DNA of 64,000 bases from Euborellia annulipes (Eukaryota; Arthropoda; Insecta; Dermaptera; Anisolabididae). Position 1 is the stretch's first letter; each line of letters opens with the position of its first letter. The stretch spans positions 62,001 through 126,000 of the forward strand of contig JAKCPI010015784.1 in NCBI GenBank assembly GCA_023213315.1, read 5' to 3'. Below, piece by piece: positions 1,415 to 60,536 of the stretch. Under the pieces are notes generated by a model, which saw only the letters and a program-made list of their open reading frames with translations, did no database searches and was not told the DNA's origin. The translations under genes were made by a program, and so were the position numbers.

Positions 1415-1925
1415 GGAGCAGGAGGATGCAGGCAGCCAGCAAGGAATAAAAAAACTTATTTCAATTTCGGGAACGCATCGTTCCTACCCTCAGGAAGATC
1501 AATTGTTAAAGTTGCTTAGGTGGATACATTGCGGTTCATATAAAAATATAATATAAATTTAATTTTTATATATACCATTAGATGACAATTGTTTGTATAA
1601 GAGAATTGTAGTAGGTGCCTGGACCCGAAACATCAGCACAGACTCCACCAGTCTTTCAATCTTGACCAGTGCTGATGTTTCGGGCCCATTTAACACAAAA
1701 AATACAGCCCAGGCATCTAATACAATTCTCTTATGACAAACAATTGTCTTCTAATAGTATATACAAATTAAATATATATTATATTTTTGCATGAACCTCT
1801 ATGTACCCACTTAAGCAACTTTAACAATTTATCGTCCTGAGGATGGAAACGATGGGTCCCCGAAACTTAGGCGAAATATCTGTAAGATTTTTTATACCTA
1901 CATCTTGCAGCTCTCCTGTTTATGT
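1415..1925. mobile_element. Hammerhead palindrome A (decayed), in HBS1L intron
   Basis: Imperfect inverted repeat of about 200 nt arms. Right-arm core CTGAGGA at 1837-1843 continues to GAAACTT at 1862-1868. The left arm (1463-1493, - strand) reads CTGAGGG..GAAATT. Core positions are mutated in both arms, so activity is unlikely. The arms also pair around 1500-1620 and 1690-1830. A second small inverted repeat (CCCGAAACATCAGC and its complement) lies in the loop at 1623-1688. The outer ends carry CAGCC-like sequence. Confidence 0.7.
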
Positions 1926-2321
1926 GCTTTAAGAATATCTAATTTGAAACATCTTATGCCAAATTGAAGTATCGAACTGACGTGTATCACCTTAATTTAA
2001 AGGGTATACTGTCTGATATTAATACTAGGGCTGTGCAAAAAATCGATTATTTAGATTATTTTTCATATTGTTTGAAAAGATGGAATGAGACTCGAATACT
2101 AAAAAAAAAAGAAAAATCAAAGGATTTTCACGAGAGTAAAAAATTGAAATTTTACTAGAGGATAAAAAAAAGGTATCATCGATTATTTCAGATTCCGGAT
2201 TCCAACTAATGTTCAGAATGTTGATCAGAGAAGTGGCTGTTCAACGATTAGAATGATAGACAGGAAGAGAGGATGTCAGCCAAAAGGAGAGCCTCTATCG
2301 AATAAAAATCTCCACTTAGAA

Positions 2322-2353
2322 GACGTTTCTGAATTAGATAAATCCATCATCAG
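2322..2353 (-). ncRNA. Hammerhead ribozyme-like core, palindrome B left arm
   Basis: On the - strand CTGATGA is followed by a stem II of TGGATT pairing with AATTCA, then GAAACGTC. Stem I is AGAA pairing with TTCT, then continuing weakly. All invariant core positions are intact. Confidence 0.65.
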
Positions 2354-2499
2354 TTCTTAAGAGATTACTGGCAATCTCAAGGTGTACACCATTGAGATGC
2401 AGATAGAGTTTTTATATAATTTTGTATATGTTTATATATAACAACTCTATCTGCATCTCAATGGTGTACACCTTGAGATTGCCAATAATCTCTTAAGAA

Positions 2500-2531
2500 C
2501 TGATGATGGATTTATATAATTCAGAAACGTC
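2500..2531 (+). ncRNA. Hammerhead ribozyme-like core, palindrome B right arm (sense to HBS1L)
   Basis: CTGATGA, stem II TGGATT/AATTCA, then GAAACGTC with a GUC cleavage triplet. Stem I forms from AGAA 5' of the core and TTCT 3' of it. It lies in the sense orientation of the HBS1L pre-mRNA. Stem III is only the AC/GU pair with no loop, so a monomer would be weak. Confidence 0.68.
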
Positions 2532-2805
2532 TTCTAAGTGGAGATATTTATTCAATCCTTTTGGCTGACATCCTCTCTTCCTGTCTATCATTCTAATGTT
2601 CAGAACGTTTAATAAAGTTTGATCCAAATGTGTGTTTCTTAAAAATCTTGCTCACTGAGGCGGCTCAACCCCCACATTGGAATTGAATTGATCTTTAATA
2701 AAGGACTAGTAATCTGGACCATACTCATATTTCCTCTTTCGTTCCTGGGCGTCTCACCAATTATGTTTAATATTTGAAAATTTATATTATTCTATTCCCT
2801 TTTAG

Positions 2806-2979
2806 ATAAATTTAAAGCACCTGAACGACCAATTAGCAAACCGTTTCGACTTTCAATCAATGACATCTTCAAAGGGACTGGATCTGGATTTTGTGTATCT
2901 GGACGTGTTGAAACAGGCATGTTACAAGTTGGTGACAAAATACTTGTACAGCCTCAAAATGAAACTGCCACAATAAAAG
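2806..2979 (+). CDS. HBS1L: HBS1-like GTPase, exon for start of beta-barrel domain II
   Basis: Continues the HBS1 frame (…EVI-D-KFKAPERPISKPFRL…). It encodes the linker and first half of the EF-Tu-like domain II, including the conserved KPFRL..NDIF..GSGFCVSGRVETG pattern found after the G domain in HBS1 and eRF3. The acceptor is TTTTAG at 2801-2805 and the donor is AAAAG|GTATAC. Codon GCT is split G|CT with the next exon. The intron before it (1252-2805) carries two hammerhead palindromes. The intron after it is short (2980-3131) with no recognisable insert. Confidence 0.93.
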
Positions 2980-3131
2980 GTATACTCTCATAATTAAAAT
3001 ACAATAGATTAGAATTGATGAAAGCGGATGACGTCCGCCTCTAATGGACATATTCTTTATTTAGAACATTTTTTTTGAATGGCCGTACATTTATATAAAT
3101 AAAATAATATTTATTGATTTCTACTTTGCAG

Positions 3132-4474: not shown

Positions 4475-4528
<54 letters not shown>
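4474..4528. repeat. (TA)n microsatellite
   Basis: About 27 uninterrupted TA units joined to the truncated SINE and just before palindrome C. Confidence 0.95.
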
Positions 4529-4531
<3 letters not shown>

Positions 4532-4911
4532 GGAATGGAAGAGAGCAAGTACAGGTGCAGCAAATAAAGAGAGCCTTTGGATGCCAAATGCCGAAAAGGA
4601 GATGTTTCGGACAAAATTTATTCGTCCATCCTCAGTCCTCTTTGGCTTATAAACTAATTAGGCACAAAGTTGTCATTGTTGTCGTGGCACAAAAAATATA
4701 CATGTGCACGAATTCGTGCCGCAACAACAATGACAACTTTGTGCCTAATTAGTTTATATGCCAACGAAGACTGAGGATGGACGAATAAATTTTGTCCGTA
4801 ACGTCTCCCTTTCAGCATTTGACATCCAAAGGCTCTCTTTATTTGCTGCACCTGTACTTGCTCTTTTCCATTCCATAACATCAACAGCAACTTCTCTTCA
4901 ATTTATATATA
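4532..4911. mobile_element. Hammerhead palindrome C with right-hand tail
   Basis: Inverted arms 4532-4690 and 4713-4874 share GGAATGGAA at the outside and GCACAAAGTTGTCATTG near the loop. Left core (4601-4635, -): CTGAGGA-T-GGAC…GTCC-GAAACATC, with a G to A change in the ACGU box. Right core (4771-4805, +) is CTGAGGA…GTCC-GTAACGTC, losing one A of GAAA. Stem I of the left core pairs GAGGA with TCCTT. A tail with ACATCAACAGCAAC follows the right arm. It lies in the third HBS1L intron shown. Confidence 0.8.
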
Positions 4912-5250
4912 TTATTAATATAACGGTGTACATCAAGGTTGATCTTTTTATTAGATAGCAATGATTTTAGTTAATAAAAATAAAAACAAACGTAAAATTA
5001 TTGAATGATAAATGATAAGCATTTATTGGAGGTATTTTCAGGCCAAATTAATTTGCCTTTTCGGGAATCTTAGTCTCTCCTTTCATCAGGACTAATGTGA
5101 TTATTAATAAATTAACACTATCCCTGAGTTCGTCATTTGAGAATGAAATTGACAGGCATTTACAAACCAGTAGACGAATTTGGACTGTCGATTTCAGTCT
5201 CATATGACGAAACCAGGGAGAGTGTTAATTTATCAATAAACACATTAGTC

Positions 5251-5285
5251 CTGATGAAGGGAGGCGTTTAGATTCCCGAAACGTC
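5251..5285 (+). ncRNA. Hammerhead ribozyme-like core, palindrome D right arm (sense to HBS1L)
   Basis: CTGATGA, extra A, stem II GGGA…TCCC (with one internal mismatch), GAAACGTC. Stem I pairs TTAGTC 5' with GACTT 3'. It lies in the sense strand of the large HBS1L intron. Confidence 0.68.
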
Positions 5286-5302
5286 GACTTCATAGGGAAA
5301 TA

Positions 5303-6093: not shown

Positions 6094-6406
6094 TTCCTTT
6101 TGAAAAAAAATGAAAAAAAAAATGGTAGAAGCAGTCCAGAAATCACATATATTGATCTATATAGTATTTGGACCGTTTATTTTGAAAGCGGTGCTAGTCC
6201 ATTTAAAAAAAAAAAAAGATATCACGTAATTTGTTCTTAATTTAATGTAAATTTTTCTATGTATAACTAGTTTCTTAAAAAACTCTCATATTTTGTACAA
6301 TTTAAAATTGATGAAAGTGGTGTAAGTCCGATTTAAGGTTCCTATTATGTGTCCAGAGTTAGTAGGTTTGGTTACTTATTAATATAAATATATGAAGCAG
6401 TTATTG

Positions 6407-6686
6407 AGGTATGTCTGTGGCTGGAAGTATTTCTAAGGCGGAGTCAAAAAAAATTGCAAAACATATGCAGCCAAAATTATTTATTTTATTATGCTGTTCC
6501 AGGCTAACGTTTCGGCCATTGGTCTAGGCCTTCAGAGCTAATCACATCACATATTACTATTATTATTATTATTATGATAATATGTATGAAAATATTTTAG
6601 CTCTGAAGATGGCCTAGACCAGTGGCCGAAACGTTAGCCTGGAACGGCATAATAAAAGAAATAATTTTCGCTGCATATGTTTTGCA
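6407..6686. mobile_element. Hammerhead palindrome E with exact 17 bp target duplication
   Basis: ATATGAAGCAGTTATTG occurs at 6390-6406 and 6687-6703. The left side has an unpaired tail of about 46 nt containing TGTGGCTGGAAG (complement CAGCCACA). Arms then run from TTGCAAAACATATGCAGCC (6454) to its mirror. The right core is intact; the left core (6506-6535, -) has CTGAAGG. Confidence 0.88.
6603..6635 (+). ncRNA. Hammerhead ribozyme-like core, palindrome E right arm
   Basis: CTGAAGA, extra T, stem II GGCC…GGCC, GAAACGTT (GUU triplet). Stem I is GCT before the core pairing with AGC after the triplet. Confidence 0.65.
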
Positions 6687-7142
6687 ATATGAAGCAGTTA
6701 TTGCCTCTGGTGCATCATGAATATTTCAAAACACTGCCACATGCAGAGCCTAAGTAAATAATACGAATATCTTGTAAATTTAACAATGTAATTAACGTCT
6801 AAAATTAAAAATACTTCTATTTATATCGTGCTATTATTTGTAAACAAAATTGAATTAATATGAAAAATATTTTAAGTGATATTTGATTTTTCAAAATTGA
6901 AATTACAAGATTTTTTTTTTTTTGAAAGTGGTATAAGTGCATTTGCAGCCCATTATTATACATTAGTTTACTCAAATTCGCCTAAAACAAATTTATATAA
7001 CCAAATTACATATTGATAAATAAGTACAAACATTGCCAGACTTTATATAATTTGTCTACATTTTTTAATGAGATATGCTTACCTTTAATTTTCTCAAAAC
7101 AAGAGAAAATGGACTTGGTCCACTTTCAAAATAAACGGTCCA

Positions 7143-7598: not shown

Positions 7599-7836
7599 AA
7601 TTGGAAAAAGGAACGGGAGCCTTCCCGGGAACAGCAACCAGGATAAATAAAAAGCTTTATATTTCGTTGCCGACGTTTCGGGTGCTAGACGCACTCATCC
7701 TCAGGACGGCTTCCACCCTAAACGTCGGCAACGAAATATAAAGTTTCTTTATTTAACCTGGCTGCTGTTCCCGGGAAGGCTCCCGTTCCTTTTTCCAATT
7801 TGAATATCTACAGCCATTCAACTCAAGAAATTCTAT
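7599..7836. mobile_element. Hammerhead palindrome F (inner part deleted) with tail
   Basis: Arms AATTGGAAAAAGGAACGGGA… and mirror end at 7800. The left core (7672-7704, -) is CTGAGGA-T-GAGTGC…GCACCC-GAAACGTC with stem I GTC/GGC. The right arm keeps only the part after stem II (TAAACGTCGGCAACG), so the right core is lost. A tail with AATATCTACAGCCATTC follows the right arm. It belongs to the same family as 36270-36702. Confidence 0.8.
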
Positions 7837-14660: not shown

Positions 14661-14800
14661 ATAATCGATTATTTTTAAGAAAATAATCAGTAAATAATCG
14701 ATAGCTCTAAACGTATTTTGGAGTTTAGGCTTTCACAGTTGTTATCATTAGTAAAAGAATTCGATTTTCGGTTTAACTGTGGTTTATTTGTAAAAATTAC

Positions 14801-14835
14801 AACGTTTCGGCCCCTCATTCTATGGGCTTCTTCAG
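14801..14835 (-). ncRNA. Hammerhead ribozyme-like core H, solo arm
   Basis: On the - strand: CTGAAGA, extra A, stem II region GCCCATAGAATGAGGGGCC, GAAACGTT. Stem I is GTAC/GTAA. It is the same family as the pair at 15999-16158 (shared AAATAAACCACA block), but no opposite arm is found here. Confidence 0.58.
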
Positions 14836-14895
14836 GTACAATTCAGCTAATAATCGGTAAATAATCGATTAATCTATTATTTTGCGCAGTCCTAA

Positions 14896-15469: not shown

Positions 15470-15530
15470 AGAACCCACAGCGACGTTTCGGTCGACTATG
15501 CGACCATATTCATGGCTAGAGTTCAGTCAA
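15470..15530 (-). mobile_element. Solo hammerhead-bearing arm I (core damaged)
   Basis: The - strand keeps GGTCG…CGACC as stem II and GAAACGTCGCTG, but the CTGANGA box has become CCATGAAT. AAAGAAATAAATTTAGCTGC lies outside it, as in the paired elements. Confidence 0.5.
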
Positions 15531-15998: not shown

Positions 15999-16018
15999 GA
16001 TTTATTTGTAAAAATTAC

Positions 16019-16053
16019 AACGTTTCGGCCACTCATTCTGTGGCCTTCTTCAG
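16019..16053 (-). ncRNA. Hammerhead ribozyme-like core, palindrome J left arm
   Basis: CTGAAGA, extra A, perfect 6 bp stem II GGCCAC/GTGGCC, GAAACGTT. Stem I is TAC before the core with GTA after the triplet. Confidence 0.7.
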
Positions 16054-16099
16054 GTACAATTCAGCTAAGATTACAAAGGTTGTCACAGATGAATTGTAC

Positions 16100-16134
16100 C
16101 TGAAGAAGGCCACAGAATGTGTGACCGAAACGTT
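16100..16134 (+). ncRNA. Hammerhead ribozyme-like core, palindrome J right arm
   Basis: Same family as the left arm; CTGAAGA and GAAACGTT are intact, but stem II has a GGCC to GACC change on the 3' side. Confidence 0.62.
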
Positions 16135-16239
16135 GTAATTTTTACAAATAAACCACAAATCTAATTCTTTTACTAACTCAAAACTTGTATATCCATCAAA
16201 ATCTCGAAATCGAACATATATAGGTAAGAGAAAGTACAA

Positions 16240-17482: not shown

Positions 17483-17740
17483 CGCCAGGAAAGAATTTAA
17501 TCAATCTTTTATCTAATTTTTAATTTTGATTTCCGACGTTTCGGACGCAAAACGCATCATTCCTCAGGGCAACAGGAAGTATCATATCTGTATTTTACTA
17601 ACTACCGATTGTCCTGAGGAAGGATGCGATTTCCGTCCGAAACGTCGGCAACCGAAATTAAAAATTAGATAAAGATTGATTAAATTTTTGTCTGATTTCT
17701 TACCTGGCTTCCATCCGACTCATATTTGAAAATTTCAACG
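17483..17740. mobile_element. Hammerhead palindrome K with tail
   Basis: Arms run from GCCAGGAAAGAA (17484) to the mirrored CCTGGC near 17708, with AATCAATCTTTATCTAATTT mirrored inside. Left core (17535-17567, -): CTGAGGA…GAAACGTC with stem II GATGC/GCGTC. The right core is listed separately. Confidence 0.83.
17614..17646 (+). ncRNA. Hammerhead ribozyme-like core, palindrome K right arm
   Basis: CTGAGGA, extra A, stem II GGATG/CGTCC (one G-U), GAAACGTC. Stem I TTGTC pairs with GGCAA (one G-U). Confidence 0.68.
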
Positions 17741-18039: not shown

Positions 18040-18437
18040 TATAGAATATCGTACATATATGTTTTTTGCATTCAGGGATATCTAAAATTGTATTAGGGGT
18101 GACCAAAGCAAAAAAAATCTTGAAAATTTCGATTTTTCTAAACTTTAAGCCGTTTGCGGCACGTCTAAATGACCTCCGATTGGGATGAAACTTAAAATTT
18201 ATATGTATTCTAACTATTTGCATATTTTTATGGGGTGCGGCGTTAAAAATAATTTGAACATTCTAAATAAAAGCCGTTTTAGAGCACATTTTCTATTAAA
18301 ATCTATTTTGCTCTATATCTCTAAAACTGTGCCTGATGGGGAAAATTCTAACTACTTATCTGAATTCAGAATGAAAAAAATGCACTAGATTCACTAATCA
18401 GATTTCTTATAAAAAAAACCTTGCCGACTAGTGTTAT
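18040..18437. mobile_element. Dispersed repeat R5, partial
   Basis: Shares long blocks with 51510-52130 and 63135-64000 (GTTTTAGAGATATAG, TTTTAGAGCACATTTTCT, TGCGGCACGTCTAAATGACC). The right end, ACCTTGCCGACTAGTGTTAT, looks like a terminus. Its intact ATGCACT..AGAATG junction is the empty site for the R1 copy at 63195. Confidence 0.65.
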
Positions 18438-18815
18438 TAATCGTCGACGTTTTGGTCGCAAATAACGATCTTCCTCAGGACGATTAATTGTTAGAATACA
18501 AGGATGACAGTATTATATTCAATTATCAATGTGGTCCATTGATTGTAAGAAGCCCTAAGCGAGCAAGTCACTCACTTTTAATACATATAGCCCAAATAAA
18601 TATTGTATAATTTACAATGGTAATTGAATATAATACTGTCAACCTTGTATTCTAACAATTAATCGTCCTGGGGAAGGTAGTGATTTGCGACCGAAACGTC
18701 AACGGTTAATTAATTAATTAATTAATTAATTAAATAAAATTTTTTTATTTAATTCCTTGACTGTAAAGTCTCCTATACCCAATTCAAAGTCTACAGCCAC
18801 TTATCAACACTAGTT
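18437..18815. mobile_element. Hammerhead palindrome L with tail
   Basis: Left core (18446-18478, -): CTGAGGA-A-…GCGACC-AAAACGTC, with stem I an 8 bp match TAATCGTC/GACGATTA. Right core (18668-18700): CTGGGGA…GAAACGTC. Each arm has one core substitution. The arms pair through TTAATTGTTAGAATACAAGG. The right tail ends TCTACAGCCACTTATCAA. A TTAA microsatellite expanded in the right arm. Confidence 0.78.
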
Positions 18816-20752: not shown

Positions 20753-21459
20753 TTATGAAAAGAAAATTATTATTGCATTCCAATCCAGTGCCTGCTCGAG
20801 TAATTGTTTGGATTCTTAGAAATGCATCAATGCAAAGAATACATAAATGTTTCCTCATGCATTTCCTTTGGGAGAAATCATAACTTTAGAAATTAAAAAC
20901 TCAAAAAGTTAAAGGAATTTCGGGATGAAAATAATAGTTGTCGAGATTTCCCTGGAAGTACATGTCCTCTGAGTTCAAAAAAATGATTTTTGCAACATGC
21001 TCTGTCTGTGTGTGTGTGTGTCTGTGAACAAAATATCTCTATATAGAACGAATTGTTTGAATCAAATTTTACTCTTGTGGCAAATATATTATATTATATG
21101 GAAACAAAATATAAATATTTCAGGAAGAGTGGCTGAAATATATATTGAGTAGTGACATGGGCGTACCAAATCTAGGGGGGGGGGGGCATGGTCAGATCAT
21201 GGTCGTCCAGATTGTGACATAGCTATTTTTTATATAGAGGGGTAAAGCCTTCGAATTAAAGGCCTAAAAACCTTCGAGTCCTAACAAAAAGAATCATTCC
21301 CCGTCGCCAACCACCAATTTTGTTTCGTTTCATCACTTTATAAACATTTAATTTTTTTGATGTAAGATAAGGTGGCTGTAGATATCAGTTGATACAGGAC
21401 AGAGGAGTTGGCAGCCAATTTTAGAGCCTCTATATTAAATAAAAACTCTCAATTCTGGA

Positions 21460-21495
21460 TACGTTTCGGCTTTATTCTACTAAGGCCATCATCAG
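21460..21495 (-). ncRNA. Hammerhead ribozyme-like core, palindrome M left arm
   Basis: CTGATGA, extra T, stem II GGC…GCC with inner TT/AA pairs, GAAACGTA (GUA triplet). Stem I GGGA pairs with TCC(A). Confidence 0.68.
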
Positions 21496-21951
21496 TCCCA
21501 TTAGAGCTGGAAAGACATACATTAATATATAAAGATGACAGTTACAAAATACAAATAAAATATTTTATATAAAATATAAAAATCTCACAGTATTAATATA
21601 TAGAGTTGTTATAATGGAATATTTTTTATATACATTAGTTGGTATATAAATAATTTCTATTTTGTATGCTTCCAGTTTTTAATACGTGTGTATACGTCTA
21701 AGTAACAATTTGATTTGATCAGATATTTCTTAAATTTACAAATATATTTTTCAATGAGATGGGATTATATCAATGACCCTTATTATTAGGACATTGCCTG
21801 AGGTGAGAAGCCGAAATAAATATTTATATAACATATTTGCGTTGTTATTATAGACAAGAAAATCCTATAATCCGGTCAAAAAGGTTAAAAGAATATTGCT
21901 TCTCTATGAAAAAAATAATTTAAAAAACAAAATTTTCCCTTTATATAAAAA

Positions 21952-21984
<33 letters not shown>

Positions 21985-21992
21985 TAATAAAC

Positions 21993-22023
<31 letters not shown>

Positions 22024-22333
22024 AGGATAGGATGGGAGATCACAGACGAGATATTAAGAATAAAAAAACGTCCACAGCCCTTTGCTCTCATGCCACGATG
22101 ACAAATCATTCTTTCGATCTAGATAATGCCATAGTCTTGATGCAAGTAGAAAATACTACAAAAAGGCTGTTTGCGGAAAAATGTTTTGTCAAGGCAATGG
22201 GAAGCAGGGCGCTAAATTTTCAGACGGACTGCGACGGACTAAGCGGTTTTTATATCTCTCTTTCTTGACTAACAATGACGCTCTGTTGAAAATATAGGTG
22301 TGTGCATATATATATATATATATTTTTTATATA

Positions 22334-22368
<35 letters not shown>

Positions 22369-22857
22369 GTTTATTATTTTTTAAAAAAAAAAAAAAAAAA
22401 GTTTTTATATAAAGGGAAAATTTTGTTTTTTAAATTATTTTTTTCATAGAGAAGCAATATTCTTTTAACCTTTTTGACCGGATTATAGGATTTTCTTGTC
22501 TATAATAACAACGCAAATATGTTATATAAATATTTATTTCGGCTTCTCACCTCAGGCAATGTCCTAATAATAAGGGTCATTGATATAATCCCATCTCATT
22601 GAAAAATATATTTGTAAATTTAAGAAATATCTGATCAAATCAAATTGTTACTTAGACGTATACACACGTATTAAAAACTGGAAGCATACAAAATAGAAAT
22701 TATTTATATACCAACTAATGTATATAAAAAATATTCCATTATAACAACTCTATATATTAATACTGTGAGATTTTTATATTTTATATAAAATATTTTATTT
22801 GTATTTTGTAACTGTCATCTTTATATATTAATGTATGTCTTTCCAGCTCTAATGGGA

Positions 22858-22893
22858 CTGATGATGGCCTTAGTAGAATAAAGCCGAAACGTA
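22858..22893 (+). ncRNA. Hammerhead ribozyme-like core, palindrome M right arm
   Basis: Identical in core and stems to the left arm of the same element; the GUA triplet differs from the GUC of most families. Confidence 0.68.
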
Positions 22894-23100
22894 TCCAGAA
22901 TTGAGAGTTTTTATTTAATATAGAGGCTCTAAAATTGGCTGCCAACTCCTCTGTCCTGTATCAATTTAATTTTTTTTTTGTTGCTTCTAGGGGGGGCAGC
23001 TGCCCCCCTGCCCCTCGCTGGGTACGCCCATGAGTAGTGAGGATATCCAAAGCAGCCAAAAGCAATAAAGAAAATTATATATATATTTCATACGTTTTTC

Positions 23101-23132
23101 GACGTTTCGGCCGATATTCCGGCCTTCATCAG
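23101..23132 (-). ncRNA. Hammerhead ribozyme-like core, palindrome N left arm
   Basis: CTGATGA, extra A, stem II GGCCG/CGGCC, GAAACGTC. Stem I TTTTGTC pairs with GAAAAA with one mismatch. Confidence 0.7.
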
Positions 23133-23327
23133 GACAAAATGCTGTTTGCCTCGAGCTCATAGAGGCTCTTGGCAACTCCTGACAATGCGTTTGAGCGAAT
23201 ATTCGTCTGATGTTATGACTTCATCACTAATGAACCAGAAGACATGACATCCGACGAATATTCGCTCAAACGCATTGTCAGGAGTTGCCAAGAGCCTCTA
23301 TGAGCTCGAGGCAAACAGCATTTTGTC

Positions 23328-23359
23328 CTGATGAAGGCCGGAATATCGGCCGAAACGTC
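23328..23359 (+). ncRNA. Hammerhead ribozyme-like core, palindrome N right arm
   Basis: Same as the left arm and complete in every core position. The two opposed cores are about 195 nt apart. Confidence 0.7.
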
Positions 23360-24182
23360 GAAAAACGTATGAAATATATACGTATATAATTTTCTTTATT
23401 GCTTTTGGCTGCTTTGGATATCCTCACTACTCAATATATAAATATTTTCCGTTTATATTTTACATTTCAAATTCTAATGTACTGCCGGAATCGATAAATA
23501 CGTGCACTCAAAAAATCTGGTGTAACAAGCACAGAACACAACTTTCAATTCAAGAGTACTGTGCGACCAGTTACATCATATTTTCTATTGTTAAATATAC
23601 AAAATAGATAATTTGATATTATTAAGAAGACTAAACACAAAATGTGAAGTCTATTTCACAATTACACATCGTCAGTTATTAGAGAACGTATTATTATTAT
23701 TATTATTATTCTGATTGTGTCAAGTCTCGCTCTCTGGCTGCTTTTAACAGATGGAATATGAAATATTCCTGTAGTTGTAATCCCTAGAGTTAAATAAGCA
23801 AATATACCACCACTCTCTCTCTCTCTCTCTCTTTCTCTGCTCATTCAATCTATGTACATTAATCTATTGTTTTCAAATTGTATAGAAATTTCTCCTTAAC
23901 AGTTTATTTTGGTAAATAGAGAGAGAATATCTTATTAAAGGGCTCTCTCTCTTTCACTTTTGCATTTTTATTTTTAATTCACAAGTAGCTACCAGTAGCG
24001 TATCCAGGTGGGGGTGAGGGGGGCGCTTGCCCCCGCCCCCGCCTCTCGATATCGGCATAGACGCCCTAGATCATTCTGCTTTCCGACTTTTTTTTTGAAA
24101 TTTCATAATAAATAAATGCTCGAACAGGATCCGAATACTAAAAAAAAAAGGTCAAATAATATTCGTATAGCCTACTTAAAAA

Positions 24183-31149: not shown

Positions 31150-31225
31150 ATCCACATGAAGATGGTCCAAACATAGAACCGAAACGTTAGCTACGCAAAT
31201 AAAATTAAAAAAAAAAAAAAAAAAA
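31150..31225 (+). mobile_element. Solo hammerhead-bearing arm O (decayed), with A run
   Basis: ATGAAGA (first C lost), extra T, stem II GGTCC…GAACC, GAAACGTTAGC, then a run of more than 20 A. Only one arm is present. Confidence 0.48.
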
Positions 31226-32120: not shown

Positions 32121-32156
<36 letters not shown>

Positions 32157-32359: not shown

Positions 32360-32380
32360 GCTATAACAACACAGAGTATA

Positions 32381-33345
32381 TTACTTTCTCTTACCTATGT
32401 ATATATGTAAATATATATATAGAGAGAAAGTATTGGATTCATGTCAAAAATTCGATGTCGAGATTTTGATGGATCTTCACGTTTTGAGGTCCCCTGAATC
32501 CAAAAAAGTGGTTTTCGCGACATGGTCTGTCTGTGGGTGGGTGGGTGTGTGTTCAATTTTAAGGATGAAGGAATTGAGCTAGGAGGTTGAAATTTTATAT
32601 TTAAGTTAAACACCCCCGGGACCGGAAAAATAAGCTTTTAATCAAAATCGGCCAAAGATTACTAGTACTTTACTGATGTACTTTTTCAGTTTTTTTCGAT
32701 TTTCTCAAAATTTGCTCCAACGATTTTTTTAAAATTCAAAAATCAATTATTTTTTAGATGCTCTTTAAAATGTATATTCTCATTTTGCGATTGAAATCTT
32801 CTGAAGACCACTTTACTCTTGTATTTCATAGGGAAGATAGGAGAAATGGTTGCCATGGTAACAAAATATAAATATTTTCCCATACTTATAAATTTTACAT
32901 CTGAATTCAAATACAGCCCACGGGGCGTGGTGTAGAGGTTAGCGTGCTAACCTCATATACCAAACGTCGCGGGTTCGGACCCCAGGCAGTCCGATGATTT
33001 TATTTAAGCCATCTGGATACCAGATGGCTTAAATAAAAATGCCTGGACCCTAATATATATAAATTCATAAATAACGGTTATCGTAAATGTCTTATATGGC
33101 CTGAGCTGCCGAAAAGACAGTGTGAATGTGTGTGTGAGTGTGAGTGTGAATGAGAAAAAAGTGTGAATGTTTTTTTTTATAAAAAAAAAAAAAAAAAAAA
33201 AAAATTCAAATATTCCCTACTGCCGGGAACTAAATACATGTCGACACAAAAAATCTGGTGTGACAAGCACAGTACACATCTTTCGATTACCGAAGGTAAG
33301 AGAAAGTTGTGTGCTGTGCGCCAGTCACACCAGATTTTTTTATTT
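32381..33345 (+). mobile_element. R1 element with SINE insertion
   Basis: Complete landmarks from ACTTTCTCTTACC to the CACACCAGATTTTTT terminal hairpin (33255-33342), with a SINE inserted at ATTCAAATA. Confidence 0.85.
32916..33203 (+). mobile_element. tRNA-derived SINE, full copy
   Basis: Head, paired AAGCCATCTGGATACC block, body GCCGAAAAGAC, GT tail and a long A run. ATTCAAATA flanks both sides. Confidence 0.86.
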
Positions 33346-33468
33346 GTGTAATTTTACAATATTATGACGTAGTGTAAATCATAGGAATTATAATTACCAT
33401 GCAGGTTGTCAATATAGGCATACAATCAAATATTCAATTGTAAATAATTAATATTATTAATATGTTGA

Positions 33469-34024
33469 GAGGGCTCGCTGGTGTAGTGAGCTAGGGTGTC
33501 GGCTTCTACAAAGAAGATCCCCGTTCAAACCCTTGGCGTGCGGGATTTTTCATTAAATAAAAATATTTATTTAATGTAAACAAATCCTCAAGCAAGCCCT
33601 GGATTGGAATATAGGATCTTTCTTTCCACAATAGCCCTCAGGCAACTCTACGAGGAGAGGGAGTTGCTGTGACATCCCGTCCTGTGGAAGGGACGTAAAG
33701 AAGGTTCCCTCTCAGTGATGCATTCTTCAAAAGGAGCAGGCTACACGCCGGTGCTGAGGGAGTCCCTCCTCAACCAGGACATCCTCCATAGCATAGAAGA
33801 GGTTGGATATAAGGAGCCGGTTGCAACCAGAAATAAGGATTAGTTCACTAGCTAGAAATACAGGAGGAGTAAGAGATAGGAAATAATGTAACTTCACGGG
33901 GTGCCGGTAGATGGCTATGGCCAGAGGCCGGTTGGGTTTGAGGTGTGTGTCTTCGTGCACGAAAGCACCTCGGGTAAAGAAACGGGGATCCCGACAGGAA
34001 TTTCAAAAATAAATAAAAAAAATA
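33469..34024 (+). mobile_element. Second SINE family (0.56 kb), 14 bp duplication
   Basis: TATTAATATGTTGA at 33455-33468 and 34025-34038. A tRNA-like head (GCTCGCTGGTGTAGTGAGCT and CCCGTTCAAACCC) is followed by a GC-richer body with no intact frame and an A-rich end. Confidence 0.8.
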
Positions 34025-34317
34025 TATTAATATGTTGAATGATTGAATAATAATCAAGAAAATACAATATTATAAACAACAAGCCAATCAGTTAAGTACA
34101 GGCAGTGGATAAGGGAGTTAGGCAACCCATGGTTATAATAGTTCCCCCACTCTGACGTAGCAAAACGAAGAATCATTACGCAGCTCACCGCTTTAAAATA
34201 TTCCTATACAAGTATATAGTAGATCGATTGTCCTGTTTGAAATTTACAGTATTGTTTAAAAATTGCCTCTAGAGTCAACCTCTTGTAATAATTGTCCTGG
34301 AACCCTAGGATTTTTAC

Positions 34318-34349
34318 CTGAAGATGGTCTTGACCAAGTCTGAAACGTC
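34318..34349 (+). ncRNA. Hammerhead ribozyme-like core, palindrome P right arm
   Basis: CTGAAGA, extra T, stem II GGTCTT/AAGTCT (weakened), GAAACGTC. Sequence 5' of the core has been lost, so stem I is poor. Confidence 0.5.
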
Positions 34350-34896
34350 AGCATAGAGGCCTTAATAAACGAAATATTCATAGCTACTATTCTTTTCTTT
34401 ATACGCTTATTCATCTCTCTTCGCATTCCAAAATTTATGTATTTTGTTTTATACTATTGCTTAAGAAATTTGTGTAACTGAAAATTAAAAGATATAACAA
34501 TTTTTATTGGGATCCTGATAGGAATTTTAAATAAAGTAATCCATTTTTTTCTATCAAATATTATTACCTGTTTGGTCAGTAAAATAGAAACTGGTCCAAG
34601 GTTTTAGAGATAAGAGTCTCTTTAAGTTAACTCCTTTCAAATGTCGTGTGTACAGCAGAGAAGTCACTTGTGTTGCCTGTGTGCCAGGCGTTTCCAAGTT
34701 TCATAAATAAACTCGGATTATTTTTTACTTTTTTTATATTTATTTACTAAATAACTAATGACATGAAAATTTTGATTTTATTAAATTTTCATAAAGTTTT
34801 GAGATTATCCTGATTTTAAGGAAAAGGCACGTTTTTGTCTCTCAACAAAATTGATTTATTTATTATTGAGAAAGATGTAGATAATTAAAACGTGGA

Positions 34897-35508
34897 GATG
34901 ATTATCAGGCTAATTTATTTGGATCGTCTCCTCCCAACGTTTCGGCGTTCTAACGACTCCTTCTTCAGGACAATGCGGGGTTAACAATTAAATTTGCACT
35001 CAATTTCGTCATAATAAATAGTTGAATAATGATTTCGCTAGTCTACTTAAAATTAAATGTGCCCTCGGGGCTTGGCGTAGAGGTTAGCGTGCTAACCTCG
35101 TATACCAAACGTCGCGGGTTCGGACCCCAGGCAGTCCGATGATTTTATTTAAGCCAATTGGATACCAAATGGCTTAAATAAGAAGGCCTGGACCACAAAT
35201 AAATATATATTATATAAATACGAGTATCGTTTAAAGTCTTAAATGGCCTAAGTTGCCTAAAAGACTGTGTGTTTGTGTCTGTGAATGAGAAAAAAGTGTG
35301 AGTGTTTAAAAAAAAAAAAAAAAAAAAAAAAAATTAAAGGTTTTTTTCTGGCTGCACTAGCGAAATCATTAATCAAATATTTATTATGACGAAATTGAAG
35401 GCAAATTTAATTGTTAATCCCGCATTGTCCTGAAAAAGGAGTCGTTAGAACGCCGAAATGTTGACATATAGCGGGAGAAGTCGGTCCAAATAAATTAGCC
35501 TGATTATT
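34897..35508. mobile_element. Hammerhead palindrome Q, loop occupied by a SINE
   Basis: Left core (34936-34968, -): CTGAAGA…GAAACGTT. Right core (35430-35462): CTGAAAA…GAAATGTT, damaged at two positions. The arms share GATTATCAGGCTAATTTATT and ATGATTTCGCTAG mirrors. Confidence 0.8.
35044..35333 (+). mobile_element. tRNA-derived SINE inside palindrome Q
   Basis: Head GGGGCTTGGCGTAGAGGTTA, full body, A run of about 30. AAATTAAA occurs on both sides. Confidence 0.85.
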
Positions 35509-35859
35509 TATTTATTTTCGAGATTTACTAATTGTAAGTCATAGAGATATACATATATATATATTATAATATATCTAACTAAGCTGTGAGTGTTATTTAT
35601 TGGCGAGGCCAAACATCCCATGGCCCCCGGGAATCGAACTCTGATTATTTATATTTTGTTACTATGGCAACCATTTTTAAACTTTTTCAGTTTAAAAAAA
35701 AGGGGTTTTCGATTTTCTCAAAATTCGCTCCAACGATTTTGATTAAAATTCAAAAATCAATTACAATTGATGATTGGGAAAGCCTGGCGCAGACTGATGA
35801 ACAAGAAATTAAAACGTTGGAGGTATTTTCAGGCCAATTTTTAATCCCACTATATAGTC

Positions 35860-35894
35860 GACGTTTCGGGAGACTAAACGCCTCCCTTCATCAG
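35860..35894 (-). ncRNA. Hammerhead ribozyme-like core, palindrome R left arm
   Basis: CTGATGA, extra A, stem II GGGAG/CTCCC, GAAACGTC. Stem I TAGTC pairs with GACTA. Confidence 0.74.
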
Positions 35895-36121
35895 GACTAA
35901 TGTGGTTTTAAGCAATCAACCCTCACTGGTTTAGTCATAAGAGAATAATATATAGTCCAACTTCGCCTGCTGTTAATAGAAAGGCATTCATGAGGCGAGT
36001 TCTCAATATAATCTAATCTAATAATAGAATGCCTTTCTATTAACAGCAGGCGAAGTTGGACTATATATTATTCTCTTATGACTAAACCAGTGAGGGTTGA
36101 TTGCTTAAAACCACATTAGTC

Positions 36122-36156
36122 CTGATGAAGGGAGGCGTTTAGTCTCCCGAAACGTC
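36122..36156 (+). ncRNA. Hammerhead ribozyme-like core, palindrome R right arm
   Basis: Identical to the left arm: 5 bp stem I (TAGTC/GACTA), 5 bp stem II, complete core. Confidence 0.74.
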
Positions 36157-36269
36157 GACTATATAGTGGGATTAAAAATTGGCCTGAAAATACCTCCAAC
36201 GTTTTAATTTCTTGTTCAAAAATCAATTATTTTTTAGATGCTCTTTAAAATGTATACCGGTATTCTTAA

Positions 36270-36702
36270 TTAGGAGAGGACGGGAGCCTTCCCGGGACAC
36301 AGCAGCCAAGTAAAATAAAAAAACGTTATATTCTCTCGCTGACGTTTCGACCGCTAGTCGCACTCATCGCTCATCTTCAGGGCAAGCAGAATTGTCAAAA
36401 ATAAGTACAGGTGGTGTGCAATGAACGAGAAAACTTTCAACAACCAACTATGCGACTGAAACTATATTGGAACAGCACTTGCTGTTTGTACAGACATATT
36501 TATGCATGACAATAATATACAGTACCACACCACCTGTACTTATTTTTGACAATTCTGCTTGCCCTGAAGATGAGTGCGACTAGCGCTCGAAACGTCGGCG
36601 AGGACAGAATATAACGTTTTTTTTTTTTATTTTACCTGTCTGCTGTGTCCCGGGAAGGCTGCCTGTCCTCTTCTAATTTGAATATCTAAACTCAACAATT
36701 TT
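36270..36702. mobile_element. Hammerhead palindrome S with tail
   Basis: Outer arms TAGGAGAGGACGGGAGCC and mirror; inner arms GACAATTCTGCTTGCC. Left core (36341-36380, -) has a 7 nt GATGAGC duplication next to the core. The tail ATTTGAATATCTAAACTCAA on the right matches that of palindrome F. A GTATATTCTTA-like duplication is imperfect. Confidence 0.85.
36564..36596 (+). ncRNA. Hammerhead ribozyme-like core, palindrome S right arm
   Basis: CTGAAGA, extra T, stem II GAGTGC/GCGCTC (6 bp, one G-U), GAAACGTC. Stem I TTGCC pairs with GGCGA. Confidence 0.73.
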
Positions 36703-52494: not shown

Positions 52495-52810
52495 ATCAGG
52501 GGATATCAATTAAAAAAAGATTTACTAAAAAAAAAGGTAAAATGATATGAATTTTGTATAGAAAATTTTAAGGAGGGGGGCGGAAAATTTTACCCCCCCC
52601 CCTAAAAATCTCGTAGTTCCGACCCTGGTTATAATTAAATAGTATTTATTATGAAATATGTCCTAAAAAAATTTATATTTAATGCTACTTGCACAATTGA
52701 CAAAAAAAATTATATATAATCCAATGAAAACAAAAAAAAAACTTTTATGTTAAGAGGATGCGTTACAAGGGCAGCCAAGGCGAAAAATAAAACAAAATCT
52801 ATTTTTTGTC

Positions 52811-52843
52811 GACGTTTCGAGTGCCGATCGCACTCTTCATCAG
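52811..52843 (-). ncRNA. Hammerhead ribozyme-like core, palindrome T left arm
   Basis: CTGATGA, extra A, 6 bp stem II GAGTGC/GCACTC, GAAACGTC. Stem I is an 8 bp match TTTTTGTC/GACAAAAA. Confidence 0.78.
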
Positions 52844-52998
52844 GACAAAAATGATGTCAATTCGTCAGGTCGTTTGACATGGCAGTATAGCTAGCATTCG
52901 ACCTCGAAATACTAGAGTCTTCAAGTAAATGTAAAAATGGTTAAAACGTTGCTATACTGCCATGTCAAACGACCTGACGAATTGACATCATTTTTGTC

Positions 52999-53031
52999 CT
53001 GATGAAGAGTGCGATCGGCACTCGAAACGTC
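52999..53031 (+). ncRNA. Hammerhead ribozyme-like core, palindrome T right arm
   Basis: Identical to the left arm: 8 bp stem I, 6 bp stem II, every invariant position present, GUC triplet. Confidence 0.8.
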
Positions 53032-53196
53032 GACAAAAAATAGATTTTGTTTTATTTTTCGCCTTGGCTGCCCTTGTAACGCATCCTCATATCATAATAT
53101 CCAGCCATCAAGAAACAACTTTTATGTTAATTTTCTCAAAATTCGGCAGGTGGCGCTTGACACACTAATGCGTAACACGGTCCAAATAACGTAGCA

Positions 53197-56840: not shown

Positions 56841-57975
56841 TTTATCTTTTTTTATAAAATAAATTCTCATTTTATTTTTATTTTTTGTTATTTTTTTTAT
56901 TTCGAGCAGATAACTCAGGGGCAAGTTTGTCGGGATGGGGGGGGGGGCGATTTTTTTTTTTTTTATTTAAGGACTTTGTTGGCATCTATGGCCATTTAGA
57001 CCCCTTTCCTATTTATTTAAATTGATTGGTAACAAATTCAATTGAAATTAAAGAGCGGAAATCATAATTTCTTTAGATTACTAGTTTTGAATTTCTTCTC
57101 GGGGGGGGGGATTGCCTTCACCGCCCCCCCCCCTCCTTAATCCGCCCCTGCCCTGTCTTACCACCCCCCAGTCATCCACCCCCCGACGGATACTGTTTGA
57201 TATATTCCACATATGGCATAATTGAATCGCTGAGTCTATCTTTTACGCTTTGTTTGACCAATAATTGCTGTAACCACATCTCTAAAACGACGCTACACTT
57301 TGACTAGACGCGAAAGCGGGCAGCGCGGCTAGTAGTAACCAAGTTATTGTATTTTTGAACTAGGTATATTCGAAAATGTCCGTTTCTATCTTCGTCTCTT
57401 CTAGTTAGCAAGAAATTAAATGGGGATTTGGAATAAATAAAATCTTTTCTAATAATCTCTCTTATTATGATGATATCTTAACACACGCACACACTCACGC
57501 ACACACACATATAGATAAGGATTTATTTCAAATGATAACTCAAGCGGAAAATTGATTTGATCTAAATTTTATGAACTCAATCATTTTGGTAAGGAAACTC
57601 TCTTCTCTAACAAGTGAATCTTCTCATTAAATTAATTAACATTTTATTTGGAAAATAAGTACTAGCAGCGACACCCGCATTCGGCGGGAGATATGATGCG
57701 TGTATATAAATTTATTTATTCTATTTTAAACAAATGGAACCCCCTTTCAGCATGTTTCCGCCAATAAAATGACGTTAATGATCTTAAGGGGGCTCAGGAG
57801 CGACGTCTAAACGTACTAAAAAAAAAAAAAAAAACTAGACTATTCTAAGGAATTTTTCAATGCGGTTTATTTTAAAATGAATTAAATTCATAGAGCTATA
57901 ATTTGTTTAATGACTTATTAAAAAATTATCGTAATTAATTTTTTTGTTATCAAGCAAATACAAAAAAACAATCTG
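56841..57975. other. Degraded repeats and AT-rich sequence
   Basis: A G-run-bearing CAGGGGC..GCCCCTG stretch (56917-57149) looks like a decayed hAT MITE. Helitron 3' relics lie at 57302-57334 and 57664-57695. A (CACACG)n patch is at 57483. No gene seen. Confidence 0.4.
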
Positions 57976-58034
57976 GATAATTATGGGCAGGAGCAGCCAA
58001 TAAATAGACTCTGTATGCAGATTCAATCACCGGA

Positions 58035-58071
58035 GACGTTTCGGTTCCTTTTATTTAAGAACCATCTTCAG
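58035..58071 (-). ncRNA. Hammerhead ribozyme-like core, palindrome U left arm
   Basis: CTGAAGA, extra T, stem II GGTTC/GAACC, GAAACGTC; stem I GGA/TCC. Confidence 0.72.
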
Positions 58072-58339
58072 TCCTTAGATTGAAATACAAAGGCACAGAG
58101 TTAGTCAATGTTATCTTTGGCATATACATTGTTGTTTCGTCATAAAAATGTTACACATGTATATTCCAGGTCAAAAAATATTTTACGATGGTCTCACTGG
58201 TGAGTATGTTATATCAATGATATAATCAAATATTTTTTGACCTGGAATATACATGTGTATCATTTTTATGACGAAACAACAATGTTTATGCCAAAGATAA
58301 CATTGACTAACTCTGTGCCTTTGTATATCAATCTAAGGA

Positions 58340-58376
58340 CTGAAGATGGTTCTTAAATAAAAGGAACCGAAACGTC
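58340..58376 (+). ncRNA. Hammerhead ribozyme-like core, palindrome U right arm
   Basis: Mirror copy of the left arm with the same core, stem II GGTTC/GAACC and stem I GGA/TCC. Confidence 0.72.
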
Positions 58377-58483
58377 TCCGGTGATTGAATCTGCATACAG
58401 AGTCTATTTATTGGCTGCTCCTGCCCATAATTATCCATCTTCACATCTCACAGCCACTACTTCGAACATAAAAAAACAATCTG

Positions 58484-59280
58484 TCCCAACAATCTTTAAT
58501 TTGTTTTAAATTTAAAAATGAATTTATTGTTATTATTAATCACATATTAATTAAGAAATTTTTAAAATAAGCTTAGATGATTTATTTAAAAATCAACTGT
58601 CAAATTAGTTCAGCATTCTTGCAATAGATGGCAGGCTAGTCTAACAGCTGATCGCCTAAAAGCCTATATATGTCCTATATGTATATGCATTTATAAAAGA
58701 TACATAATATATAATAACATTTATAAAGTATTTATTGTTAAAAGATCAATGAAAATCAACCAAATGCATTAAATATTATTAGCTACCATTCTGACATCTC
58801 TTGGCAAATTTTTGAATTACTTGATTTTTTGGGCACACTTTTAATGACACACAACGCCATCGTAGCGGGAAAAACATACGTAAACACTTCGCTCCTGCCC
58901 CGCCTTAAAAAGTTAGCCAAAAAAGCCCAACTATTACGGAAATTTGCCAAGAGATGGCAGAATGGTAGGGCTGTATTTAATCTCATGTAGCCCTTGGGCT
59001 TGGCGTAGTTGGTAGCGCGCCTGCCTTGTATATCAAGGGTGGAAGGTTCGGTATGTAAAATTAGTTTGAACTCAGGTAAAAGACGTTGTCACGTTAAAAG
59101 TCCACCGGATGTGTAGAAACAACACCAAACTTTTTGTCTCTGGTAGTCAAATTGAATTGAAATACAAATTTCTCTCACGAGAAACCGAATTTTTATCACA
59201 AATGCTGGATTATCGAATCTTTTAAAATTCTTCTCTGTAATTTTTTATTAAAAAAAATTCAATGAGGAAGACTAGAAAAG
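58484..59280. other. Non-coding with SINE and block-a fragments
   Basis: A divergent tRNA-like SINE head at 58986-59060 (GGGCTTGGCGTAGTTGGTAG, GGAAGGTTCGG) is followed by a piece of block a of the 25.1-27.0 kb palindrome (AAAAGACGTTGTCACGTTAA). At 58785-58990 a mirrored TCTTGGCAAATTT / AAATTTGCCAAGAGA pair marks an inverted-repeat element. Confidence 0.5.
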
Positions 59281-59700
59281 TAATTACTTAGATCTTTTTT
59301 TCTCTCTGTCGATTGTAACGCCCCCACACACATCCACACCAATTGATTGCAATCTGATTAGTATAACTTCTTTTTTTTTTTTTTCCTTACTGGCCTCCCC
59401 ATCGCATCATCTAACGAAGGCGATTTGAATAATTCATCTCCGAAAACCGTTTCTATTTGAGAATCTATCATTGGCCATAAATTGTGTCCAGAGTGACGGT
59501 AGTGGGCCTCAGGGCAATTCTAAATGTGATTCCCCCCCTCCTCTCTTTGAAATGAATTCTCTCTCTCTCTCTCGTTGATGTTGTCGTCGTCGTCGTCGTC
59601 GTCGTTTTGGTCTCTGGTGATTGACGGCCGAACACACCCAAGAGCAGCACACATAATGATGGATGATTAAACTAGAGAGTGTGACCCGCCCTCGGGAAGG
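59281..59700. other. CT- and CGT-repeat island
   Basis: (CT)n at 59557-59575, (GTC)n at 59580-59606 and GC-richer surroundings; a near mirror image in composition and order of the island at 16240-16860. No exon evidence. Confidence 0.35.
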
Positions 59701-59796
59701 ACTCCCCCTCCCTATTCCCTTTTCTAATTAATTATACCTAATCCCTAGTTATTTTATTTTTCTACTTATCTTGATTTTAAACAACATGTTTCTATT

Positions 59797-60536
59797 GATA
59801 AGAGTGTAAAAATGAGAAATGCAGCTAAGGTTATTTCTTTATTTGGTTAATTCACACAGCTGCCGTTTCGGTTTCGTGTTTGAACCATCCTCAGAGCTCT
59901 AATCATACATATACAAGCGATATCAGAAATTATTACAATTATTACAATCAATAGAAATTCAAATTATATGAAAGTGTCATAGTGGATTTTATACATTATT
60001 GAAAAATTCTTATATAATAAATATATACACAGTGTGAGACCACCAGGTACGACCAGGTACACTGTGTATATATATATATATATATATTGATTGTAATAAT
60101 TGTAATAATTTCTGATATCGCTTGTATATGTATGATTAGAGCTCTGAGGATGGTTCATACACGGAACCGAAACGGCAGCTGTGTGAATTAACCAAATAAA
60201 GAAATAACCTTAGCTGCATTTCTCATTTTTACCCTCTTTTTTTTTTAAACACTCACTTTTTTCTCATTCACACTCACATTCACACAGCCTTTTCGGCAAC
60301 TTAGGCCATTTAAGACTTTATACGATAACCGTTATTTAATAATATATATTTATTTTGAGTCCAGGCATTCTTATTTAAGCCATTTGGTATCCAAATGGCT
60401 TAAATAAAATCATCGGACTGCCTGGGGTCCGAACCCGCGACGTTTGGTATATGAGGTTAGCACGCTAACCTCTACGCCATGCCCCGAGGGCTTTTACCCT
60501 CTTATTAATATAACATCTCAGCTATAAATTGTTTAT
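59797..60536. mobile_element. Hammerhead palindrome V with exact 16 bp duplication and nested SINE
   Basis: ACAACATGTTTCTATT at 59781-59796 and 60537-60552. Arms GATAAGAGTGTAAAAATGAG and mirror. Left core 59862-59894 (-), right core 60144-60176 (+): CTGAGGA-T-GGTTC…GAACC-GAAACGGC in both. The right tail ATAACATCTCAGCTATAAAT follows the nested SINE. Confidence 0.92.
60239..60491 (-). mobile_element. tRNA-derived SINE with 12 bp duplication, inside palindrome V
   Basis: Full - strand copy; TTTTACCCTCTT at 60227-60238 and 60492-60503. Confidence 0.88.

Follow-up and report, generated by a model that had tools for sequence, protein, structure and literature searches.

Outward-facing hammerhead motifs in Euborellia annulipes as probable by-products of insertion by Penelope-like elements

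A 64-kb stretch of the 903-Mb genome assembly of the dermapteran insect Euborellia annulipes (GCA_023213315.1, contig JAKCPI010015784.1, positions 62,001 to 126,000), hereafter the window, carries dispersed loci, labelled A to V, at which hammerhead ribozyme motifs occur mostly as opposed pairs that face outward. Each of these loci probably arose by insertion of a Penelope-like element (PLE) through priming of reverse transcription on both strands of the target, the inserted copy being a short non-coding unit in some cases and an autonomous element truncated at its 5' end in others. The attribution to PLEs, taken alone, is close to certain. The opposed hammerheads would be a by-product of insertion and not a functional unit, and such pairs can be read as insertion scars.

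Hammerhead motifs and their link to Penelope-like elements

Searching the window for the pattern CTGANGA..GAAAC gave 28 matches, compared with a mean of 0.6 and a maximum of 2 in 60 first-order Markov controls. A covariance model (R1), built from 36 window motifs with their stems I and II, recovered 37 cores of at least 33 bits, the next-best score being 13.9 (E <= 10). As all but one of these 37 sites had served to train R1, covariation and matches in the loci of other families provide the less circular support. In the 36-motif alignment, stem I flanks the core and stem II lies inside it, and the two stems have a covariation score of 0.556, against 0.192 ± 0.025 after shuffling and 0.14-0.23 with slid partners. 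The 3' part of the core reads GAAACGUH in most motifs and is not followed by a loop, which leaves room only for a very short or an intermolecular stem III. Judged by its sequence, the hammerhead is of the minimal type found in PLEs, lacking a stem III hairpin, and is predicted to cleave. The original prediction had looked to the Rfam hammerhead models to recognize the cores, but these missed the minimal motif in this window: the Rfam scan returned no hammerhead, neither at the gathering score nor at E <= 10. A genome search with RF00163 also gave no match; its controls were equally silent, so this search is uninformative. Window palindromes matched microRNA and small RNA models with scores below the cut-offs of those models, which we take as hairpin artefacts.

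Sixteen loci (B, C, D, E, I, J, K, L, M, OP, Q, R, S, T, U and V) are opposed pairs with both cores, and in all 16 the left core is on the minus strand and the right core on the plus strand, pointing outward. A and F are two further opposed pairs, with one core decayed or partial in each, and G, H and N are single loci, as is a decayed core, W. The resulting total of 21-22 agrees with the roughly 22 loci, mostly palindromes of left-minus and right-plus polarity, that had been predicted. Two entries of the predicted list, near 31.75 kb and 34.3 kb, are best read as one dimer (OP) that was interrupted later, with an identical 12-bp sequence on both outer sides. Across 53 fetched genome loci, R1 revealed four more pairs, each facing outward (L015, L025, L027 and L040), together with several single sites; since the fetched flanks are a non-random sample, no genome-wide number is claimed.

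Parental elements with a reverse transcriptase and a GIY-YIG endonuclease are present in the same genome. A search with the GIY-YIG domain (PF01541) gave at least 118 matches among the best 150 of 710 candidates scored, in frames of up to 852 amino acids (aa). By eye, and among the matches listed, neighbours less than 6 kb apart were outward in nine cases, inward in none and direct in two; contig C12946 holds an inward pair 9.3 kb apart. Of 30 fetched loci, 13 have a same-strand R1 site 3' of the GIY-YIG domain, 10 of them at a distance of 417-508 bp, and the hammerhead 3' of the GIY-YIG gene in L078 scores 51 bits. The frames of L077 and L068 exceed the curated cut-off for GIY-YIG and fall just under that for RVT_1. 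The L089 frame exceeds the cut-off for RVT_1, and a GIY-YIG domain appears at its end when the C-terminal part is scanned alone and is absent from the whole-frame scan. Many of its 48 listed relatives are 820-840 aa long with RVT_1 and PF26215, GIY-YIG being named in two, and solved structures gave no match to L089 at E <= 0.01.

Two window loci connect directly to these elements. In locus E, the two arms match the sequence downstream of the L078 GIY-YIG gene at 90% and 93% identity. Locus L contains a remnant of a PLE endonuclease C-terminus (22029..22262, +), on the same strand as, and upstream of, its right hammerhead arm, that aligns with the endonuclease frame of L076 over 80 residues at 41% identity (E 1.5e-15). 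This remnant was the only window match in a tblastn search with 36 PLE frames from 30 loci (E <= 0.01). The search found no reverse transcriptase in the window, in agreement with the earlier statement that none lies nearby, but a piece of PLE coding sequence does remain. Regular expressions for the two domains found six YxDD matches in the window, in short or interrupted frames, and no GIY-YIG match. From these alignments, L and E look like 5'-truncated copies of autonomous PLEs. Families T and R, named after their window copies, are tentatively placed among PLEs by shared architecture, and would have been mobilised in trans. The Penelope-type origin that was originally proposed is therefore supported and tied to the GIY-YIG and reverse transcriptase elements of this genome; the term 'non-autonomous' suits T and R, which are short and have near-uniform 5' ends, but apparently not L and E. 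Comparison with the PLEs of the same species links L and E but leaves T and R without a parent; no link emerged for the other families.

Autonomous elements also occur as dimers. In L076/L077 the arms are 99.5% identical, a 10-bp AT-rich duplication lies directly at the untailed end, and 29 extra nucleotides (nt) are present on one arm only, a one-tail layout. A further outward pair, L088/L089 (contig C4577, 109391-117587), has arms that are 99.96% identical over 2367 bp, and is either very recent or gene-converted.

Families T and R and the formation of head-to-head dimers

A genome search with the arm of locus T scored the best 40 of 1572 candidates, all 98-100% identical, and 30 loci were fetched, the window's own copy included. 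The unit is about 231 nt and non-coding. Sixteen of the 30 insertions are dimers and 14 are single (partner detection by BLAST, E < 0.01). The 5' ends are near-uniform, with 29 of 30 main arms beginning at unit positions 1-21; within dimers, the tailed arm begins there in 15 of 16, and at 58 in L018. Partner arms begin anywhere from unit positions 1 to 162 and end at 198-209 in 14 of the 16 dimers, while main arms reach 229-231. At the 16 junctions the arms overlap by 1-12 bases in eight dimers, have no overlap in two, and are separated by inserts of 1-40 bases in six. All 16 junctions differ from each other, indicating that the palindrome was made at each insertion and not copied. This, together with the 14 single loci, contradicts the original suggestion that the elements were amplified as foldback units.

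Target duplications of at least 9 bp (median 11.5) were found at 25 of the 30 T loci, in 15 of 16 dimers and in 10 of 14 singles; among mismatched flanks the count was 14 of 870. One direct duplication encloses the whole insertion, be it dimer or single, and its length varies among loci. An inverted arm gained after insertion, through local inverted duplication or gene conversion, would agree with the high identity between arms, but we rejected this explanation and consider it scarcely credible: the duplication surrounds the whole dimer, the second arm has a 3' end of its own, and T arms resemble those of other loci as closely as they resemble their own partners. No inverted arm outside a singly duplicated copy was noticed in the 30 T loci, although no dedicated search for one was run. 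In the window, repeats of 12-17 bp exceed the locus's own mismatched controls at seven of the 18 opposed loci (B, E, L, OP, R, T and U). Candidates at C and Q are of low complexity, those at F and J lie inside the arms, and those at M, S and V are only 8-9 bp; the search gave no candidate at A, D, I and K.

Since part of the tail lay within the T query, family T is unable to test whether each dimer has a single tail, and family R, searched with an untailed arm, is the fairer test. The best 40 of 1268 candidates were scored and 30 loci fetched. Five of these were second listings, L042 with L055 and L047 with L048 were merged by contig and orientation, and the duplicated L046 and L054 were dropped, leaving 21; arm pieces of fewer than 40 bases were not counted. 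The R unit is about 249 nt and non-coding, and 17 of the 21 loci have an arm beginning at positions 1-22 of the reference, the window copy. Eighteen loci are dimers, and in all 18 exactly one arm extends to unit positions 253-263 and the other ends at 220-234, so that each dimer bears one 3' tail of roughly 30 nt. Truncation may affect either arm, and has left a tailed arm of only 48 nt in L031. Of the singles, L037 is tailed, and L038 and L051 are untailed. L041 and L042/L055 have one flank in common at 97% and may be related copies. In the window, inspection by eye recognized a tail at 10 of 18 opposed loci, always on one arm only.

Such one-sided tails bear on the possibility that the loci are foldback or miniature inverted-repeat DNA transposons, in which a transposase would mobilise the arms as terminal inverted repeats. 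The flanking duplication and the almost perfect inversion of the arms fit that description, but the outer ends are asymmetrical, 5' truncation of the arms falls at varying points, 14 of the 30 T insertions lack a partner arm and 16 of 16 T junctions differ. Neither symmetric terminal repeats nor a fixed duplication length was found, and we rejected this origin as extremely improbable.

The two arms of an R locus have variants in common. After duplicated loci were dropped, arms of the same locus shared 41 of 83 substitutions (15 pairs), whereas partner-shuffled pairs shared a mean fraction of 0.115 and a maximum of 0.333, and none of 1000 shuffles reached the observed value. Before this removal the figure was 42 of 92 over 17 pairs, with a shuffled mean of 0.104. 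Sharing among T arms is weaker and in the same direction (2 of 19 over 16 pairs; 11 of 1000 shuffles). Three substitutions are private to one R locus and present on both its arms (one in L049, two in L060). Gene conversion after insertion could also have contributed to the sharing between arms.

A small hairpin may mark the tail. Among 12 sequences, in tailed arms the motif NGCTG precedes the untailed end and CAGCN lies within the tail, and the N pair covaries, being G-C in B, E, F, L, T and U, A-U in H and OP, and U-A in C and L077; for K and R other stems score best. The core ends about 60 nt before the untailed 3' end in T and R, about 70 in L077, and about 50-75 nt overall. Given that none of the stems reaches significance by itself, and that the families are related to one another, the hairpin is a lead that draws on one covarying pair and its repeated position.

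These features suggest the following model of two-strand priming. The PLE endonuclease would make staggered cuts in the two strands of the target, and reverse transcription of the element RNA would be primed by each of the 3' ends thus freed, starting 3' of the hairpin to yield the tailed arm, or about 30 nt upstream, in the hairpin loop, to yield the untailed arm. Both complementary DNAs (cDNAs) would extend toward the 5' end of the RNA, usually halting at different points, and would be joined head to head, with the short overlaps seen in half of the T dimers; filling of the stagger would create the target duplication. As both cDNAs start at the 3' side of the RNA, the 3' end, and with it usually the hammerhead, would be retained in both arms, facing outward. 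We infer priming on both strands and a role of the hairpin in the choice of start site. In L027 (1296-1442), the partner arm ends 1-2 nt from the predicted cleavage site and adjoins the target duplication; in this one case, the template may have been a self-cleaved RNA.

Under the alternative of self-priming, or snap-back, one PLE RNA (antisense in the bdelloid model) folds back and is copied to a palindrome, so that the elements would still be PLEs and the second arm would not be target-primed. The available text of PMC3846280 inferred such a process from palindromes at inverted junctions, the arms share source variants, and some T junctions are blunt or have a short mirror insert (L016 and L014). 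However, self-priming predicts the same 3' end in both arms, whereas the ends observed lie at two sites about 30 nt apart, and a partner may begin deep in the unit beside a near-full-length arm (T L008 at 162, R L031 at 213). We therefore regard self-priming as unlikely, although it is the most serious competitor of two-strand priming among those considered.

Several observations weigh against two-strand insertion by PLEs. Pairing is not obligatory, since 14 of 30 T loci are single, and T partner arms end elsewhere in L024 (unit 175) and L027 (unit 138). No tail motif was found near the untailed R singles L038 and L051, the arms of R dimer L040 differ at a TA-repeat stretch, and by-eye inspection did not recognize a tail at eight of 18 opposed window loci. 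Convincing duplications were not found at 11 of the 18 opposed window loci, nor at the other three of four autonomous dimers examined (C8739, C18298 and C4577). Taken singly, no sequence gives a significant tail hairpin: in the 10 sequences in which it scores best, 7-26 of 100 shuffles do as well. Among the 30 fetched GIY-YIG loci, 17 have no same-strand R1 match downstream, and eight of the 13 positive loci, all eight among the 10 with a site at 417-508 bp, belong to one family with a weak match (20.4 bits, E 0.0018); the L077 core reads GAAATATAT at its 3' side instead of GAAACGTH. Finally, no autonomous parent of T or R was found.

A more specific and rather doubtful extension is that T and R are passengers of PLEs resembling short interspersed elements (SINEs), with fixed-length RNAs of their own. 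Insertion would be symmetric and two-ended: two RNAs from one source locus, perhaps paired via the palindromic ACGU of their open hammerheads, would each be copied from one target strand, the conserved 3' hairpin giving the two strands different start sites. If true, the hammerhead would act in RNA pairing as well as, or instead of, cutting.

Loci of the window and neighbouring sequences

Locus A is an opposed pair (1452..1880) with a right hammerhead at 1825-1880 (+) and a decayed left core at 1452-1505 that scores 11.8 bits. Dimer B (2206..2605), tailed on the left arm, has hammerheads at 2311-2365 (-) and 2488-2542 (+) and the terminal repeat CTAATGTTCAGAA at 2206-2218 and 2593-2605. Dimer C (4520..4914), tailed on the right arm, has hammerheads at 4590-4647 (-) and 4759-4816 (+) and a TA-rich 11-bp terminal repeat at both ends that does not exceed its control. 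Locus D (5044..5296) is a decayed dimer resembling family R, with hammerheads at 5044-5101 (-) and 5239-5296 (+). Dimer E (6390..6703), with a left-arm tail, has hammerheads at 6495-6547 (-) and 6591-6646 (+) and a 17-bp terminal repeat, ATATGAAGCAGTTATTG, at both ends. The opposed pair F (7613..7820) has a left hammerhead at 7661-7716 (-), a partial right core and a right-arm tail. The single decayed core W, at about 10411-10447, is below the reach of R1. Locus G (14790..14847, -) is a single hammerhead arm, as is H (15471..15525, -), which has a tail (TAGCTG/CAGCTA).

Dimers I (16008..16145) and J (17524..17657) have hammerheads at 16008-16065 (-) and 16088-16145 (+), and at 17524-17579 (-) and 17602-17657 (+), respectively. 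In dimer K (18435..18711), which has a right-arm tail, they lie at 18435-18490 (-) and 18656-18711 (+). Dimer L (21346..22976), which contains the endonuclease remnant, has 100% identical arms at 21389-21970 and 22383-22964, hammerheads at 21449-21507 (-) and 22846-22904 (+), a left-arm tail and a T-rich 13-bp terminal repeat at both ends. It is followed by dimer M (23080..23380; hammerheads 23090-23144 (-) and 23316-23370 (+)) and by the single arm N (31144..31199, +). The putative dimer OP (31659..34418) has a left-arm tail, cores about 2.5 kb apart in hammerheads at 31752-31806 (-) and 34306-34360 (+), and the repeat TTATTCATCTCT at both ends.

Dimer Q (34925..35473) has hammerheads at 34925-34980 (-) and 35418-35473 (+). 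Dimer R (35749..36229) has 100% identical arms at 35798-35989 and 36027-36218, hammerheads at 35849-35906 (-) and 36110-36167 (+), a left-arm tail at 35764-35797 and the terminal repeat TTCAAAAATCAATTA at both ends. Dimer S (36330..36607) has hammerheads at 36330-36392 (-) and 36552-36607 (+). In dimer T (52740..53130) the arms span 52745-52891 and 52951-53097, with hammerheads at 52800-52855 (-) and 52987-53042 (+), a right-arm tail of roughly 30 nt and the terminal repeat AACTTTTATGTTAA at both ends. Dimer U (57962..58483), tailed on the right arm, has arms at 57974-58183 and 58228-58437 (99%), hammerheads at 58024-58083 (-) and 58328-58387 (+), and the terminal repeat AAAAAAACAATCTG at both ends, and dimer V (59787..60251) has hammerheads at 59851-59906 (-) and 60132-60187 (+).

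The start of the window contains exon-like stretches of a translational GTPase gene (+), which we take to be HBS1. One, at 498-1259, matches GTP_EFTU (E 7e-49), and others were assigned by reading at about 2800-2980, 3130-3330 and 5825 onward; a Pfam scan of 3065-3403 gave no match. Several palindromes sit between these stretches. An inverted repeat pair (3524-3684 and 4337-4497, 83%) is tRNA-like by eye and possibly a SINE. Outside the loci described, a palindrome at 10774-12214 has 716-nt arms (97%), a 9-nt loop and no R1 match, and a cluster of nested inverted repeats at 25104-26960 has arms of 79-459 nt (92-99%). A mariner-type transposase remnant at 48107-48837 (-) is split between two frames (HTH_48, and DDE_3 under its cut-off). 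At 61545-62300 (-), a 251-aa frame with a zinc-knuckle-like pattern by eye, and no Pfam match over cut-off, is possibly the first open reading frame (ORF1) of an element without long terminal repeats (non-LTR).

Comparison with known systems

Cervera and de la Pena in 2014 and Lunse et al. in 2017 reportedly described minimal type I hammerheads, thousands of them dispersed in animal genomes. A search of the open literature, covering titles and the starts of abstracts and not extending to Craig 2021, Cervera 2014 or Lunse 2017, found no description of short non-coding PLE families with opposed hammerheads. A paper on butterfly transposable elements (PMC6685494) contains the words 'nonautonomous Penelope' once. 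Accessible parts of PMC7761336, PMC7229834 and PMC6155905 deal with minimal hammerheads, both in PLEs and scattered through animal genomes. Those of the pseudo-long terminal repeats (pLTRs) of PLEs are type I motifs with stem III almost absent, for which cleavage as dimers has been proposed (PMC7761336). The core type is the same as that found here, but in the excerpt available of that paper the motifs are dispersed or tandem, and opposed pairs are not mentioned.

Metazoan non-LTR retrozymes are non-autonomous hammerhead elements that spread via small circular RNAs, and our loci resemble them in being short and non-coding, in having a type I hammerhead and target duplications, and in sharing a genome with PLEs (PMC7229834, available text). 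However, retrozymes have canonical hammerheads with tertiary contacts and are arranged as direct tandem repeats, whereas copies of T and R occur singly or as head-to-head pairs, their 5' ends lie away from the cleavage site (T begins 139 nt before it), and the helix III hairpin is absent. With neither canonical helix III nor direct tandem copies found, we rejected a retrozyme origin, which is very unlikely.

The protein of Poseidon of Anolis carolinensis (PAc) cleaves and extends both target strands, and reverse transcription starts internally at a stem-loop, which explains the tail; a hammerhead lies near the pLTR-ORF junction (PMC11167929, accessible text). The placement of the hammerhead finds a parallel here, and the stem-loop start site and the action on both strands have counterparts in the model proposed above. 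PAc forms tandem or partial-tandem arrays, in contrast to the head-to-head dimers described here. Candidates for direct partial tandems (pLTR-ORF-pLTR) are the two direct GIY-YIG pairs less than 6 kb apart among the matches listed.

A close likeness is found in Penelope of the bdelloid rotifer Adineta vaga; the original prediction could not match the loci to a described family. According to the available text of PMC3846280, an inverted pLTR is placed head to head with another copy, head-to-head orientation is preferred, and one inverted pLTR has an optional 31-bp tail; there are target duplications of 8-10 bp, solo pLTRs and junction palindromes. Inverted head-to-head copies, a tail on one end, target duplications and single copies all recur in E. 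annulipes. The A. vaga copies in that text are mostly coding and few, whereas here short non-coding families are common and one tail is present in 18 of 18 R dimers. Inverted pLTRs, tails and minimal hammerheads of PLEs are already published; the literature searched did not yield short non-coding units whose 5' ends are nearly uniform, a one-tail rule as strict as in R or a shared source of the arms. The available texts of PMC3846280 and PMC11167929 leave the mode of PLE insertion unsettled. Young short-dimer families supply many independent insertion products with exact ends, so that two-strand priming, self-priming and hairpin-directed starts become testable by counting. The phenomenon is therefore real, largely explained and of a kind already known, and its details sharpen how such dimers may form.

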